Shown here one piece after another: positions 4,576 through 24,517 of a stretch of 38,776 bases of DNA; within the stretch, counting starts at the first letter, position 1; every line of letters starts with the position of its first letter. The translations under genes were made by a program, and so were the position numbers. This DNA comes from Thermoproteota archaeon (lineage in GTDB: Archaea > Thermoproteota > Thermoprotei_A > EX4484-217-1 > JAPDJV01), in the NCBI GenBank assembly GCA_029258925.1, contig JAPDJV010000017.1, positions 1-38,776 on the forward strand, written 5' to 3'. The notes under the pieces were generated by a model that was not told where the DNA came from, did no database searches, and was given only the letters and a program-made list of their open reading frames with translations.

Positions 4576-5187
4576 CTACGAAATATATAGGATGTACGTC
4601 CTTAACATTAAGAATAGTATTGTCGCTATGCATCCTATTAAAACCATTTTTAAACCCGACTTGATCAAGGGTTCCTCGCTTATTTTACCTAGATAAGCTC
4701 CTAAGGTGAAGAGTAGTGCGTGTATTATAATTATTGACATCAACGTGGCGCTCATAATATTCAACACTCCAAGCATGCATGCCACATATGGCAACAATGA
4801 TATTGCCGGGAAGAATACTACCCCCAGCAAAGACCAGAACGCGACATATAGTGGAATCACTCTAGCAACCTCGCCGTAAACACTGTTATCTAGGTCAGCT
4901 AGCACCGATCTCTCGATGTGCTTCAACTCTTTAAGTCTCTCAGCCTTCTCCGACATATATGTTCCCATAAAACCGCTGAAGAAACCCATGGTCACGATAC
5001 CGCCTAGACCTGCACCAACATATGCTGTGGGATCTTTTATGTTCATGGCAAGTATTCCCAGGACTATTCCCAGAATCGATAGTAGACCGTCAAGGGAGTT
5101 TGTTACGAAAAGCCTTCTACTAACCTCCTCGGCTTTAGCAATTCTGACGAGTCTTTTCATCTTAGTAGTGTATTTAAACACCATCAC
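4576..5187 (-). CDS. VIT1/CCC1-family membrane protein
   Basis: A 203-residue integral membrane protein with about five hydrophobic segments (around residues 31-50, 58-76, 106-126, 130-158 and 180-202). The N-terminal LDGLLSILGIVLG and the GLGGIVTMGFFSGFMGTYMS stretch followed by an E/K-rich linker resemble the VIT1/CCC1 family, which moves iron or manganese across membranes in eukaryotes. Many acidic ligands of characterised plant VIT1 are not obvious, so the substrate is uncertain. It stands alone between the minus-strand threonine synthase and the divergent argS. A second ATG follows the first directly and either could be used. Confidence 0.65.
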   Translation of the reverse strand: MMVFKYTTKMKRLVRIAKAEEVSRRLFVTNSLDGLLSILGIVLGILAMNIKDPTAYVGAGLGGIVTMGFFSGFMGTYMSEKAERLKELKHIERSVLADLDNSVYGEVARVIPLYVAFWSLLGVVFFPAISLLPYVACMLGVLNIMSATLMSIIIIHALLFTLGAYLGKISEEPLIKSGLKMVLIGCIATILFLMLRTYILYIS

Positions 5188-5245
5188 CCACTACCCTTCT
5201 AGGTAGGCGACTTGGAAGCCACATAATGGTACTAGTAGCGCATTC

Positions 5246-5253
5246 TATATATT
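5246..5253 (+). promoter_or_regulatory. Probable TATA box of argS
   Basis: TATATATT lies about 40 bases before the ATG pair at 5289/5292 and downstream of the first possible ATG (5226). Its position argues that the upstream ATG is not the real start. Confidence 0.4.
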
Positions 5254-5288
5254 CCTGTCTATCCTCTATGAAACAAGAGGGCAATGGA

Positions 5289-7262
5289 ATGATGGGATTA
5301 GACGTGGAGTTGCAAGATCCTTACGTGCACGTACTCGAAAGACTAGGCAAGCTGGCTTCACAAGCATTGAGCGAGCTTGACATCCACTTAGAGGAGTCTG
5401 AAGTGATACAACTCCTAGAGGAGCCCCCGAAGGAGGTCATGGGTGATATAGCGCTGCCTGTGTTCCAAATAGCGAAAAAAGTGAAGACTAGCCCCGCAGA
5501 GCTAGCTAGGGCATTAGTTGAGAAACTTGGAGAAACACCTGATCCAATAGTGGAGAAAGCAGTTAACGTGGGAGGTTACGTCAACTTCTATTTAAAAACA
5601 CGTGTTCTAGCCGAAATGCTCTCGGAGGCTTTGAAGAAGTATGGTGAAGATTATGGAAGGATTAAAGTGGAGAAACCTTTGAAAATAGTGGTTGAACATA
5701 CTAGTGCAAATCCCGTACATCCACTACACATAGGCCATGCCAGAAACTCGATTATAGGAGACACGTTAAGTAGACTTCTAACGTGGAGAGGGCACAGAGT
5801 TGAACGCAGATTCTACGTCAATGATATGGGTAGACAAGTAGCTATCCTAATTTACGGATATAGGGCACTGGGGTGTCCCAAGGTAAGAGACAAACCCGAC
5901 CACTTCATGGGAATCATATATGCTATGACGAACACTATTATTGAAATAGATCGCTTAAAGACGGAGATAAACGATGCGAAAAAATCCAATGACGATAAGA
6001 GGCTTAAAAGACTTCTAAAAGAATTGGACGAATGGGTTTCCGTAGCAGACGAACTGAGAAGAAAAGGCCCTGAACTATTCGATACACTCGTTGAGAAACT
6101 TAGGGGAAGAGACCACGAGAAAGAACTATCACTCCTCATGAAGGCCTACGAGGAGAGAAGCGACAAGCAGTTAGTTGAAGTATTTAGGAAAGTTTCCGAG
6201 ATGGTTATAGAAGGGTTCAAGGAAACCCTGAGAAAAGTACACGTGGAATTCGACTACTGGGATTGGGAGAGCAACATAGTTTGGAGCAGCATTTTAGACG
6301 AAATTGTGGAGAAAGCTAGGAAACTAGGCAAACTAGTGACGTATAAGGGAGCGTACGCTATAGATCTCACAAGTATTCAAAGAAGCGAAGATTTGAGGAG
6401 AAAACTGGGCTTACCCCAGTTCTTCAAAATACCGCCACTCATAGTGAAGAGAAGCGATGGAACAACACTTTATCCAATAAGAGACGTCGCCTATTCGATA
6501 GTTAAGTTCAGGAATGCGGATAAAGTGATTAACGTCATAATGGCCGAGCAAAAATTGGAGCAACTCCAAGTAAAGCTCGCACTATATGCGCTTGGCTACA
6601 TTAAAGAGGCACTAAATCTAATCCACTACTCGTACGAAATCGTAAAGCTTCCAGGAGTCAAGATGTCGGGTAGAAGGGGTAGGTACGTGTCTTTCGACAG
6701 TGTTATAGATGATGCGATAGTAAGAGCATTTTATGAAGTGAAGAAAAGGAATCCAAATATGAGCGAGGAAGAAGCCTCTAAGATAGCTAAAATGGTGGGC
6801 ATAGGGGCAATAAGATATGCTCTCATATCAGTTAGTGCGGAGAAACCCCTATTATTCGACTGGAACACTGTTTTAAGTTTTGAACAAAACAGCGGACCAT
6901 ACATACAGTACACTTACGCTAGAGCAAGGAACATCCTAAAGAAGTACGGTAAACCCGTAGATTACACTAACCTAGACTATGATAGCGTGGAGGAGAAAGC
7001 GGAGAGGAGGAAACTCGTAAAACACCTCTTAAAATATCCCCACGTAATCTCGAAGGCTGCCGACACTCTGGCACCGGAAACAATAGTGGACTACGCTGGC
7101 AAGCTCTCTGAAACATTCAATAAATTCTACGACACCGACCCAGTTCTAACAGAGAAATGCGAGTCCAAGAAGAAAATGAAGCTGGTATTAGTGAAAGGAA
7201 CCCAAGTAGCACTGAAGAACATACTGTCCATGCTTGGAATAGAAGCCCCAGAGAAAATGTAG
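5289..7262 (+). CDS. argS: Arginyl-tRNA synthetase
   Basis: Class I aminoacyl-tRNA synthetase that charges tRNA-Arg. HTSANPVHPLHIGHARN carries the HIGH signature at about residues 147-150, and VKMSGRRGRYV is the KMSKS-equivalent loop of ArgS. The N-terminal ArgS domain and C-terminal anticodon-binding helical domain (QYTYARA region onward) are both present. The open frame extends up to an ATG at 5226, but a TATA-like element at 5246-5253 and a GAGG at 5277-5280 favour the ATG at 5289 (or 5292), giving about 657 residues. It is monocistronic and ends before a strong hairpin terminator. Confidence 0.93.
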   Translation: MMGLDVELQDPYVHVLERLGKLASQALSELDIHLEESEVIQLLEEPPKEVMGDIALPVFQIAKKVKTSPAELARALVEKLGETPDPIVEKAVNVGGYVNFYLKTRVLAEMLSEALKKYGEDYGRIKVEKPLKIVVEHTSANPVHPLHIGHARNSIIGDTLSRLLTWRGHRVERRFYVNDMGRQVAILIYGYRALGCPKVRDKPDHFMGIIYAMTNTIIEIDRLKTEINDAKKSNDDKRLKRLLKELDEWVSVADELRRKGPELFDTLVEKLRGRDHEKELSLLMKAYEERSDKQLVEVFRKVSEMVIEGFKETLRKVHVEFDYWDWESNIVWSSILDEIVEKARKLGKLVTYKGAYAIDLTSIQRSEDLRRKLGLPQFFKIPPLIVKRSDGTTLYPIRDVAYSIVKFRNADKVINVIMAEQKLEQLQVKLALYALGYIKEALNLIHYSYEIVKLPGVKMSGRRGRYVSFDSVIDDAIVRAFYEVKKRNPNMSEEEASKIAKMVGIGAIRYALISVSAEKPLLFDWNTVLSFEQNSGPYIQYTYARARNILKKYGKPVDYTNLDYDSVEEKAERRKLVKHLLKYPHVISKAADTLAPETIVDYAGKLSETFNKFYDTDPVLTEKCESKKKMKLVLVKGTQVALKNILSMLGIEAPEKM

Positions 7263-7315
7263 TAATAAAGATTGTTTGAACCGAAGATCGCACGACTCGC
7301 GTTGATAGAAAAATT

Positions 7316-7355
7316 AAAGAGCTATTTGATTCATATTTGAATCAAATAGCTCTTT
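7316..7355. terminator. Perfect 18-bp inverted repeat between convergent genes
   Basis: AAAGAGCTATTTGATTCA (7316-7333) is followed after a four-base TATT loop by its exact complement (7338-7355). It lies about 50 bases after argS and a few bases before the stop of the convergent LruC-type gene. Both strands have short T runs at the outer edge of the stem. The position between converging genes suggests bidirectional termination or a 3'-end stabilising hairpin; this role is inferred. Confidence 0.7.
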
Positions 7356-7366
7356 TCATATTGTTC

Positions 7367-8548
7367 TTAAGGTTTGATGTATACTAAATCAATATTATAG
7401 TTTTCCCACCAGTTCTCAGCGTATTCCGGAAGTCCGTCGACACAGGTTACATCGTCATATGCATCCCATATTGGCACAATCTCTCTAGGCCACAACCAGT
7501 CCACGGGAACTGTGATGACTCTAAGGTCTCCTTTATCCACAGTATAGTGCTTCGTATTTGAGAAGCAACAAACATGTAGATAGGGGTTGAAGAATAACTC
7601 TTCTGCATGCACATTACCGGCACTGTATGGGTCATAATCGTTGAGGTCGAACTCCACTGGATTATCAAACATTATAACTAGCTTCACTATAATCTTAGTC
7701 TTTACATAAGAATCTTCTTGCACCGTATTTGTGAAAATCTCGCCTTCATTGGGAGGTAGCGCATCCTTTGTCCATTCGATTACGGTGAAATTGTTGTCCA
7801 CGCTGGCAATGAATTCTCCGTCCTCCACAGCAGTCGGGGTTCCGTTTTCATCGTAGAATGTAATAATGTAGTGTCCGTTACCTGGGAAGGTGTTGGCTGG
7901 AATGGAGAAACCCCACAAATGATTATAGCCTGCTCCTCTCGCTTCAGGAACAAATACGAACTTTATTGCCATCAGCTTTGGGCCGCATTTACAGCAGCCT
8001 GGATGGCAATCACAGTTTGAGTGACATTTGCATTTAGTGTATAGTGCTTCAGTATTGATATCTACAATCCAATCGTTGTAGTCAAAATCGTTTCCTGTAC
8101 CTATGGGTAAGTCTTCAAATGCTGCTGTTAGTGTTCCACCAGTAGGCCACTCTATTATAATATGGTTCTTCCAGAAACCAATAGTGTAGCCACAGTAGTT
8201 GTTTAAGTTGTCGCATAGTGTTTTCGCGTATTCGAGATTTTCAAAGTCTTCATCAGTCAGTTCGTCAGGCTTAACCTGGTATAAGTCCATTATTGCCTTA
8301 GCTTCATCAAAGTCTGGAATACCATTACCGTTTAAATCCGTTGAAGGATCTAGAAAGCCGAACTCTATGTTCTTTACAGTGGCATTGTATTGTTCCCATG
8401 CCTTCTCCCACATGTTACTGCGCTCTTTATGATTGCATGAGATCGTTGCTTGAGGCACTATAGCTATCATTGACGCCATGACCAATAGTATCGTCAATAC
8501 CATAATTTTGTGTATGTTCTGCTTATATATCACGCTAAAATTATCCAT
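7367..8548 (-). CDS. Secreted LruC/DUF4842-type protein with Ca-binding loop and Cys-rich insert
   Basis: About 393 residues. The N-terminus has a hydrophobic signal segment (about residues 16-35). A calcium-loop pattern DLNGNGIPDFDE (72-83, counted from the GTG at 8551) resembles EF-hand/dockerin loops. GYTIGFWKNH (121-130) is a motif of many secreted proteins. The LruC signature follows: FEDLP with DFDYNDWIVDI (145-165), ARGAGYNHLWGF (204-214), and a C-terminal domain ending WWENYNIDLVYIKP. A CKCHSNCDCHPGCCKC cluster (174-189) is inserted between the two LruC segments. GTG 8551 and ATG 8548 are tandem candidates after a GGAG at 8562-8559. It has its own promoter. LruC proteins are best known from bacteria, so transfer is possible. 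A cell-surface or extracellular role is inferred. Confidence 0.75.
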   Translation of the reverse strand: MDNFSVIYKQNIHKIMVLTILLVMASMIAIVPQATISCNHKERSNMWEKAWEQYNATVKNIEFGFLDPSTDLNGNGIPDFDEAKAIMDLYQVKPDELTDEDFENLEYAKTLCDNLNNYCGYTIGFWKNHIIIEWPTGGTLTAAFEDLPIGTGNDFDYNDWIVDINTEALYTKCKCHSNCDCHPGCCKCGPKLMAIKFVFVPEARGAGYNHLWGFSIPANTFPGNGHYIITFYDENGTPTAVEDGEFIASVDNNFTVIEWTKDALPPNEGEIFTNTVQEDSYVKTKIIVKLVIMFDNPVEFDLNDYDPYSAGNVHAEELFFNPYLHVCCFSNTKHYTVDKGDLRVITVPVDWLWPREIVPIWDAYDDVTCVDGLPEYAENWWENYNIDLVYIKP

Positions 8549-8591
8549 CACTGTTCTTCTCCTTTTTCTAGATACTACTCCCTATTTCTGG

Positions 8592-8603
8592 AGATATATT
8601 AAA
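8592..8603 (-). promoter_or_regulatory. TATA box of the LruC-type gene
   Basis: The minus strand reads TTTTTTAATATATCTCC here, an AT-rich TATA element about 45 bases before the start codon. An AAAAAGGAG ribosome binding site follows at about 8567-8559. Confidence 0.45.
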
Positions 8604-8879
8604 AAATTTCTACAATAATATTACTAATTTTATAATCAATTTTTATCCTATTTTAAAATGAAAATGGCTGGAAAAAAAGTGATGAAGCGATTCATTAGCA
8701 TCCATTTCCGCCAAAGCGGAGATCAAAGGCTTGAAGATGAACGCAATTGTACATTTTTCTAAGCTGGATGAAAGCTGCTGAGAAAAAATGCTTTAAATAT
8801 TATTTAAGCCGAGATATTTCTGGAATTCATTAACTATCTTAGTTTAGGTAAAAAGAAAGTTCGTCACTTTTGATTAAAT

Positions 8880-9047
8880 ATGCGAAGCAAAAGTTTCACT
8901 GTTCTCATTGGGATTATTGGAATGATTTTATTGGCTTATTCGAGTTTACCTAATTGTTCCCAAACTAAAACCACCGAATCCCATTCTACATCTTCTCGTC
9001 TCTCTAGAGGTCTTACGCTGAATTCGAAGTATTGTGAAATAGGTTAA
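8880..9047 (+). CDS. Possible small secreted peptide (55 aa)
   Basis: ATG at 8880 opens a 55-residue frame. A short basic start (MRSKS) is followed by a hydrophobic stretch (FTVLIGIIGMILLAY), a cysteine, and a Ser/Thr-rich tail. This looks like a small exported or membrane-anchored peptide. A TATA-like TTTAAATATT lies near 8792, but no clear ribosome binding site precedes the ATG. It sits on the opposite strand to the secreted LruC-type protein and to tRNA-Arg. It may be real or a chance frame; I recognise no family. Confidence 0.25.
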   Translation: MRSKSFTVLIGIIGMILLAYSSLPNCSQTKTTESHSTSSRLSRGLTLNSKYCEIG

Positions 9048-9095
9048 TGAAGTAAAAGTCTGTTCCCTAGGAGGAGGTAGAAATCGTAGTTAACG

Positions 9096-9173
9096 TGGCG
9101 GGCCCGCGGGGATTCGAACCCCGGACCTCCGGCTCCGCAGGCCGGCGCCCTATCCAGGCTAGGCCACGGGCCC
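9096..9173 (-). tRNA. tRNA-Arg (anticodon GCG)
   Basis: The reverse complement gives a 78-base tRNA with acceptor arms GGGCCCG (9173-9167) and CGGGCCC (9106-9100), discriminator G, and an encoded CCA (9098-9096). The T arm holds GGTTCGAATCC. The anticodon stem CCGGC/GCCGG encloses CTGCGGA, so the anticodon is GCG. No intron is present. Confidence 0.95.
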
Positions 9174-21472: not shown

Positions 21473-24400
21473 CTATAATGTCACCTCCGCGAACTTCTTC
21501 AACTCGTTAACCATTTCCTCATATATTTTCTCCAATTCATTTAATTTATCGTTCGGTATAGTCATTCTAGCTCTCACTATTTTAGTCACTATGGGCAACT
21601 CCATTAATGTAGACGTCTTAACACCTCTCTCGATAGCCTTTCTAGCCATGCTATAGAAGTCAATTATGATTTTCAGAAGCTTGTACTGTTTCTCCGGAAC
21701 GCTGAAAACGTCTATTAAATCGAATGCGTTCTGCCTTAGAAAACCGTCTTTCAGCATTCTGGCTACTTCTAAAACCAGCTTGTCGTGTTCGCTTAGAGCT
21801 TCTGGACCTATAAGTCTAACTATTTCCCTGAGCTCCGCCTCCCTATGTAAGATCTCCATTGCTGTCTCTCTAAGTCTCTTCCACTCTGGACCCACACGCT
21901 TCACCCACCACATCAACGTGGTTTCAGTATAAGCTGAATAGCTCATCAACCAGTTTATTGCGGGGTAATGTCTGCTATAAGCTAGAGCGGTGTCTAGAGC
22001 CCAAAATACTCTGATCATTCTCTTAGTATGTGATGTGACCGGTTCGGAGAAGTCTCCTCCTGGAGGTGAGACAGCTCCTATGAGCGTTACTGAACCATAC
22101 CTTTCGGGATTGCCTACTCCAATAACTTTACCAGCTCTCTCATAGAATTCAGCAAGTCTTGAGGCGAGGTAGGGTGGGTATCCTTCCTCAGCAGGCATCT
22201 CCTCAAGTCTCCCTGAAATCTCTCGTAAAGCTTCAGCCCACCTACTAGTAGAGTCTGCTACGAGTAATACGTCGTATCCCATGTCCCTGAAGTACTCGGC
22301 TATAGTAACTCCAGTATAAATGCTAGCTTCTCTGGCAGCAACAGGCATATTACTGGTGTTGGCTATCAGAATTGTTCTCTCCATCAATGGTCTTCCCGTC
22401 CAAGGATCCTTCAACTTCGGGAACTCTACTAGAACCTCTGTCATCTCGTTGCCTCTCTCCCCGCAACCAATGTATATCACGACCCTTGCGTCAGACCAGG
22501 AGGCTAATACGTGGAGCAATACAGTGTTATGCAATATTGCTGGGAATATTCCCCCGACGAAGTTCTGTGTTCCGGGAACCACAAGATCGTATACCTCCTG
22601 TTCTCCCGCTATTTCCTCAACTTCAACAACTCTATCTAGCGTTACATATTCCAATGCGTTTAGTAATGTTGCAGATGCTGTTAAATCCTCGAAGCATAAC
22701 GTCCTGCTAGATCCCTCTATAACGATGCCGCCATCCATTGCAACACCTTTTTCACCGAACAGGTTTCCGGGGGGGCTGAGAGGATTACTCATATAGTATT
22801 CTCTGATAGCCTCTACTTTCCTATGCACGAAGTCTGTGGACTCCATTAAAACATTCGTAAACAGCTGTAAGTTGCCGAGGCCTCTAATAATTATCTTGTA
22901 GCATTTGTCTTCCTTCTTTATTTCGTGGAAAACTCCGAGTCTAGCTAAAATGTAGGACAAACCTCCTGCCATTTTCTTAGATAGAACAGTTATCTCAACC
23001 ATTCCATCCGCGAATCTCCCGGATCCCACATAGTATCCTTTAAGGAATGCTGCAACCACTCTGTCAGGAGACTTCAAGATTATTTGGGGAACACCTACGT
23101 CAATCCCTCTCCCTACAGAGACTCCTAGTTCCTCTAATAACTTAATTAGGAGAGACTTTTGGATTCCAACCCCTCCTTCGGGAACATTCTGGCAAGTCAG
23201 GCCAAATAATTCTTTCACTAGACTTGAAAACCTGGATAATATGGATGAGTCCTCGTTAACAAGTTTTAAACTATTGTAATCCACAACACCACTGGATATT
23301 AAAAGCCCTAGAAACTCCGCAAACTTCTCATCTACGATTTTAGGCACTTTCATACCATCTACATTACTAGTCGATGAGTTGATTGAAAGGTTTCCTAGAA
23401 GCTCTGATTCAGCCTTTATTTCCTGGTACTGTAGGTTAAGCCTTATTTTCTTTGGTACTATTATGCTGTCGCCTAGAGTTATCAGTGCTGCAGGTTTTTC
23501 TTCAAACGAGCCTCTCTCACCCAATGTTATCAGCTTATGTGAAGGAGTCACCTCAATTACTCTGCCCGAAGCCGTCTTGATTCTGATGATTCTCTCTGTC
23601 TTACCCTTATAGATGTAGGCAACGGGCATTTCCACTATTTGTACACCATCAAATGATAGTACATGGAGGTTTTCTACTTCAACAAGTTCCTCATCTAGCA
23701 ATGGATTTGGTTCTTCACCTTTACAAGCAATAAACAACTCTTTTATAGGTACCAGCCTGCCATCGCTGAGTAGTACTGGTGTATGTGGAAGCACACACTT
23801 ACCTGTTCCGAAACCTCCTGGAACAGCTCCTGTTCCTCCCTTGGCCATAGGGAAGAATGTGTCAATTATCCTTGTACCGGTAATTAAAGGCTCTGTTGGT
23901 TCGAGCTTTACCTTATATGGCCTAGGCTTCCTAACAGGCCACTTATGATACATTTTTAGCTCGTGTTTTTTACCATTAGATTCTAAGGTTGCTATTGCCT
24001 CCTCAACAGTATACTCTCCTTCGGGAACTATCTCGCTAATTTTACCCCTATATCCTGGGGGAACCATTATCTTATGTTCTATAAGTGGTGTTTCCTCGAC
24101 AACACCTATAATGTCTCCAGGCCCAACTTTTACTCCCGGTTTCACGGAGGGTTTAAAATACCATTTCTTGTCTCTCGGAATTGAGGGAACCTTTATTCCT
24201 CTAGTTACGAAGATTCCTGAAACGCTCTTTATTATCTCCAACGGCCTCTGAATACCATCATAGATGTTCCCTATTATTCCGGGACCCAGCTCCACCGTTA
24301 GGGGCATGCCAGTTCTATAGACTGGTTCACCTGGCCTTAAGCCACTAGTATTTTCATAGACTTGTATTGTAGCTGTTTCCCCCTCTACTCTGATCACTTC

Positions 24401-24517
24401 TCCTATGAGCCTCTCGGATCCGACTTCAACCAGTTCATACATGCTAGCTTTACCCATATTGTTGGCTTTTACTACTGGTCCACTTATCCACACTATTTCG
24501 CCTACTCCAAGACTCAT
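21473..24517 (-). CDS. atpA: A-type ATP synthase subunit A precursor with intein
   Basis: A 1014-residue precursor of the catalytic subunit. The exteins (1-240 and 665-1014) add to 590 residues, the normal length of subunit A. The P-loop GGFGTGK/T is split by an intein between Lys and Thr; downstream, [13 protein letters not shown] and the [10 protein letters not shown] and [20 protein letters not shown] motifs are typical of the catalytic subunit. ATP hydrolysis or synthesis needs the intact P-loop, so splicing is essential for function. It starts nine bases after subunit E and ends one base before subunit B. Confidence 0.96.
22526..23797 (-). mobile_element. Intein in atpA P-loop (VMA-b type site), endonuclease probably inactive
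   Basis: Residues 241-664 (424 aa) form the intein. Splicing blocks: Cys241 with [13 protein letters not shown] (block A), [12 protein letters not shown] with T324/H327 (block B), [14 protein letters not shown] (block F), and a terminal His663-Asn664 followed by Thr665 (block G). All look competent. A central LAGLIDADG domain is present as [12 protein letters not shown] (401-412) and [13 protein letters not shown] (490-502), but the catalytic Asp of each motif is Ser (S409, S499). The insertion between the P-loop Lys and Thr is the site known from Pyrococcus and Thermoplasma ATPases. The loss of both acids suggests the homing nuclease is dead while splicing is retained. Confidence 0.92.

Follow-up and report, generated by a model that had tools for sequence, protein, structure and literature searches.

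The LruC/DUF4842 domain defines a mainly bacterial family of surface proteins. For one leptospiral member, LIC13086, the predicted model resembled the 3oqq structure of Bacteroides ovatus BACOVA_00967, and the recombinant protein showed no Ca2+ binding by circular dichroism (PMC8280789), which cautions against taking calcium binding as a family trait. LIC13086 and BACOVA_00967 are both described as lipoproteins. The DUF4114 domain, present for example in Myxococcus PilY1.1, is described as Ca2+/sugar-binding (PMC9109919). In the nearest relatives found for the protein studied here, from Anaerolineales (Chloroflexota; L001 and L002), LruC forms the C-terminal domain of longer repeat proteins, with DUF11-type repeats in L001, and has a short hairpin with no Cys cluster. 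Segments of the GYWKNH type occur in bacterial secreted proteins, and bacterial metallothioneins of the SmtA type, which are small and Cys-rich throughout, have C-x-C clusters with His.

The archaeal protein is encoded on the minus strand of a 38.8-kb contig, and the whole stretch analysed (38,776 nucleotides) is referred to as the window. The features of the locus are as follows.

7367..8551, minus strand: open frame of 394 codons for the LruC/DUF4842 protein (394 aa; PF16130, TIGR04456), probably starting at the ATG at 8548, with GGAG ~10 nt 5' of it
8444..8551, minus strand: signal-like hydrophobic N-terminal segment, residues 1-36, core IMVLTILLVMASMIAIV, without a clear lipobox (read by eye; the model shows a helix over residues 8-29)
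8303..8338, minus strand: putative EF-hand/TSP3-type Ca loop DLNGNGIPDFDE, residues 72-83 (consensus match)
8162..8215, minus strand: C113-x6-C120-GYTIGFWKNH segment, residues 113-130 (from the sequence)
8069..8092, minus strand: NDFDYNDW, an invariant LruC block, residues 154-161, and a candidate Ca site resembling DUF4114 (alignment; sub-threshold DUF4114 match)
7985..8032, minus strand: Cys/His insert CKCHSNCDCHPGCCKC, residues 174-189, at the hairpin tip between strands 161-172 and 193-204 (homologue comparison; model)
7919..7942, minus strand: ARGAGYNH, a conserved LruC block, residues 204-211 (ARGA and H invariant in the alignment)
7565..7570, minus strand: C328-C329, a second Cys patch in a separate loop (HVCCFSNTKH), not in bacterial relatives and at the end of strand 322-328 in the model
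7442..7444, minus strand: C370, a further cysteine not in bacterial relatives
7316..7355, no strand assigned: inverted repeat (perfect over 18 bp, 4-nt loop) 3' of the LruC stop, where the ArgRS and LruC genes converge; a terminator-like hairpin possibly shared by both
9096..9173, minus strand: tRNA-Arg(GCG), bounding the probably gained segment on the right (ArgRS/tRNA-Arg(GCG) spacing compared with the relative G006)

Membership in the LruC/DUF4842 family, as put forward in the original prediction, was borne out by profile searches, which did return an LruC model match: PF16130 (DUF4842) scored 29.9 bits over residues 195-367, above the Pfam cut-off of 22. TIGR04456 (LruC) was borderline against its curated cut-off of 36, at 34.2 bits by hmmscan and 36.4 bits with in-frame pieces summed. 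In an alignment with four bacterial relatives, all residues invariant across the five domains (E146-D147-L148, NDFDYNDW, ARGA-H, H315, W352, W354-P355, and E357) were kept in the archaeal protein, which has the full block set of E-D-L, NDFDYNDW, ARGA..H, and W-x-W-P-x-E. The whole domain could be aligned with the Anaerolineales versions, beginning at the EDL block and ending at the C-terminal WW, at 33-38% identity and with the invariant blocks all present; unlike these long repeat proteins, the archaeal protein is short, and an EF-type loop and the GFWKNH segment precede its LruC domain. Confidence was low in both AlphaFold models, whose mean pLDDT was 57 and 61. For each of them the top PDB fold match in Foldseek was 3oqq, with a probability of 1.00 and a lead of at least 15-fold in E-value over the other PDB fold matches, but with a low TM of only 0.28-0.41 and a very low sequence identity to the archaeal protein of 10-13%. 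The leptospiral LruC proteins, which belong to the same domain family, are likened to it by description only; a difference is that LIC13086 and BACOVA_00967 are described as lipoproteins.

Among the genomes searched, the gene was confined to one. An LruC profile search of 229 genomes of the class gave this genome as the only real match, and a DUF4842 search of a 300-genome sample of the phylum had the same outcome, which agrees, for the class and this sample, with the predicted rarity of the family in archaea. A weak, apparent second LruC of the class (G746, L010) was discarded, as the match spans a stop codon amid ordinary unrelated ORFs. Contamination or a binning error was also rejected since the contig surrounding the gene also carries ArgRS, PolB, A-ATPase, TmcA, and DUF2286 genes of archaeal type; this housekeeping setting supports the archaeal host that had been proposed, and the host is probably heat-loving. 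The gene for the A-type ATPase catalytic subunit A (window 21473-24517, minus strand) is itself interrupted by an intein, in which an Intein_splicing match covers residues 257-664 and an endonuclease domain of the LAGLIDADG_3 type is present.

Comparison with G006, a genome of the same class but a different family, revealed a gene-free version of the site. There, the ArgRS and tRNA-Arg(GCG) genes are convergent and 78 bp apart, whereas in this genome LruC occupies a gap of 1,833 bp between them; past this gene pair, no synteny with G006 was seen. No att-type repeats of an integrating element were found at the tRNA, and a viral or plasmid origin was dismissed because no LruC relative turned up in viral contigs, plasmids, and phages. 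The best matches outside were the Anaerolineales proteins. A horizontal gain from bacteria is likely, and it would be the simplest reading, but no homologue found is close enough to assign the donor. Independently of LruC, several families of this class were seen to have a tRNA-Arg gene adjoining ArgRS, its anticodon (GCG, CCG, or TCG) and orientation varying (window 5226-9173; L023, L024, L025, L026, L029, L030).

The N-terminal part of the protein fits two further elements of the original prediction. Export is suggested by the hydrophobic N-terminus, which on reading by eye is of the exported type, and the EF-hand-like loop claimed upstream of the insert was found in DLNGNGIPDFDE, which matches the EF-hand consensus at positions 1, 3, 5, 6, 9, and 12 and satisfies the loop pattern D-x-[DN]-x-[DN]-G-x-x-D-x-x-E. 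At E <= 10 in Pfam, no EF-hand, dockerin, or TSP3 profile match was listed. Over residues 136-166, on the acidic block, DUF4114 (PF13448) gave a match that stayed below the Pfam cut-off (19.4 bits vs 27). A GFWKNH-type pattern is matched perfectly at just one place in this genome, by the C-x6-CGYTIGFWKNH segment, which resembles the bacterial GYWKNH-type segments and had no counterpart in plasmids and viral contigs.

The insert has seven Cys and two His within 16 residues in the pattern CxCHxxCxCHxxCCxC. Across 21 neighbouring ORFs, which total 9,476 residues, cysteine accounts for 0.75%. At this rate at least 7 Cys in 16 are expected with P ~1.4e-11 per position, or ~7e-6 over 5e5 residues, so the cluster is non-random against the local background, which supports the original prediction. 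The LruC signature was, however, not split by the insert as originally read: NDFDYNDW and ARGAGYNH are both intact, and what the cluster extends is the variable hairpin that separates these two blocks. In nine bacterial homologues, the stretch between NDFDYNDW and ARGA is a short variable turn, to which the archaeal protein adds 12-16 residues, and in the model two long strands are linked by the cluster; it is therefore a hairpin-tip expansion between two beta-strands. The insert was absent from all nine bacterial domains, as were C328, C329, and C370, leaving ten cysteines of the archaeal LruC domain that are not shared with bacterial relatives. No close homologue with the insert was found.

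The description of the cluster as metallothionein-like held for the motif but not for the protein as a whole, which has 13 Cys in 394 aa (3.3%), is neither small nor Cys-rich throughout, and had no metallothionein match in Pfam or NCBIfam; other than in the SmtA type, the cluster is one 16-residue loop of a long, exported-looking protein. A reading of the insert as a haem site was discarded in the absence of a CxxCH motif. In the full-length model, pLDDT fell below 50 at residues 175-187, so the geometry of the insert is not judgeable. Of the outcome that the original prediction itself had named as refuting it, a disordered, non-conserved loop with no partner cysteines, or no LruC model hit, half came about, as the loop is of low confidence and missing from nine homologues. 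The other half did not, since LruC models do match and potential partners exist outside the cluster in C39, C113, C120, C328, C329, and C370.

A class-wide DNA search for C-x-C-H-x2-C-x-C returned matches in 32 genomes, mostly in short or unlikely frames, and only the window protein and one other, L047, looked like real exported proteins. Nine viral contigs matching CxCHxxCxCHxxCC had short or repeat-like frames and were judged to be noise. The exported-looking L047 family (L047:1336-1932, plus strand, and L081-L109) occurs in 63 of the 226 genomes examined from the class, was not detected in this genome, and had no Pfam or PDB match; going by an impression from sequence, its members are possibly TasA-like archaeal pili. 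Its sequence is unrelated to that of the LruC protein, yet it likewise has a variable Cys/His cluster in a loop between strand-like segments, along with a second Cys/His loop. Across 30 members, the loop that follows the GDxDxxIxSYKxF block varies between poor in Cys and very rich in Cys and His (as in CCEHCCCCCIKC and THCVCHSCCV), and the second loop often has more Cys and His. The Cys counts of the two loops correlate (Spearman 0.51, p = 0.004, a statistic that ignores relatedness), while those of loop 1 show no correlation with cysteines elsewhere (0.12). By analogy and not by homology, this family makes a functional LruC insert more plausible.

Taken at about even confidence, the leading reading is that of an exported, adhesin- or matrix-like LruC beta-sandwich, gained from bacteria, that would hold Ca2+ and carry a hairpin rebuilt as a metal-bound or disulphide-linked Cys/His knob. 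I infer export, Ca binding, metal binding, and adhesion alike; what the data show directly is the family, the insert and where it lies, its absence from homologues, the archaeal setting, and the gene-free site in a relative. Speaking for the reading are the PF16130 score, the retained invariant residues, the 3oqq fold match, the bacterial homologues without the insert and the added cysteines, the single LruC match in the class, the ArgRS/tRNA-Arg(GCG) spacing, the L047 family, and the resemblance of the acidic block to DUF4114. Speaking against it are the low model confidence, the low TM to 3oqq, the absence of Ca2+ binding in the leptospiral protein, the want of a close homologue with the insert, and the borderline TIGR04456 score. 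The sandwich would be supported by Ca2+ bound both at the acidic NDFDYNDW block and in the N-terminal EF-hand-type loop, and the protein would make adhesive or matrix contacts in the manner of an adhesin or extracellular-matrix protein. Its exposed knob, perhaps closed by C328-C329 of the second loop, would either chelate Zn, Cu, or Fe as a soft metal ion, which is the favoured version, or form disulphides, and may serve as a reinforcement or contact point.

Whether the knob binds metal or is stapled by disulphides depends on how its residues are read. A metal-free knob, in which S-S bonds inside the insert and from it to C328, C329, and C370 would stabilise the exported protein of an archaeon from a hot environment, is possible though somewhat doubtful: leaving aside the signal-proximal C39, an even number of 12 Cys remains, and cysteines were gained at several places together relative to bacterial homologues. 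The repeated CxCH spacing with its His, and the CxC and CC steps, suit metal ligation at least equally, however, and a knob made of disulphides alone would leave the His enrichment beside Cys in the L047 family without a purpose. Metal ligation is only moderately favoured, mainly because His accompany Cys both here and in that family. To take the metal further and make the insert a dedicated metal-scavenging or electron-transfer site, as the main function of the protein, appears highly improbable. The C-x-C clusters do recall metallothionein ligand patterns, but a single short cluster in a long protein of low overall Cys content, the missing haem motif, and the lack of a redox or metal-transport gene directly beside LruC speak against it; a VIT1-family gene (4576-5187) lies beyond ArgRS.

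The cluster could also be a functionally neutral, lineage-specific loop expansion, which would agree with the low pLDDT of the insert and its absence from every homologue compared. This was considered distinctly unlikely given the density of cysteines in a Cys-poor genomic setting, the additional cysteines elsewhere in the domain, and the recurrence of Cys/His-rich loops in a second exported family of the class. A wider proposal returns to the metal-binding knob: archaea of this class may repeatedly place such Cys/His knobs on hairpins of unrelated exported beta-rich proteins, with two loops forming one site, as a general means of metal cross-linking or stabilising surface structures, and the LruC insert would be one case, on a bacterial domain. 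This generalisation is tentative and more probably wrong than right.

With this protein, a family of surface proteins known mainly from bacteria is extended to an archaeon, with a domain that would have been altered after transfer by the gain of a Cys/His hairpin. Beyond this locus, over a quarter of the class carries an uncharacterised exported family with variable Cys/His loops, and the idea of metal-ligated or cross-linked archaeal surface proteins becomes directly testable with small, expressible proteins.
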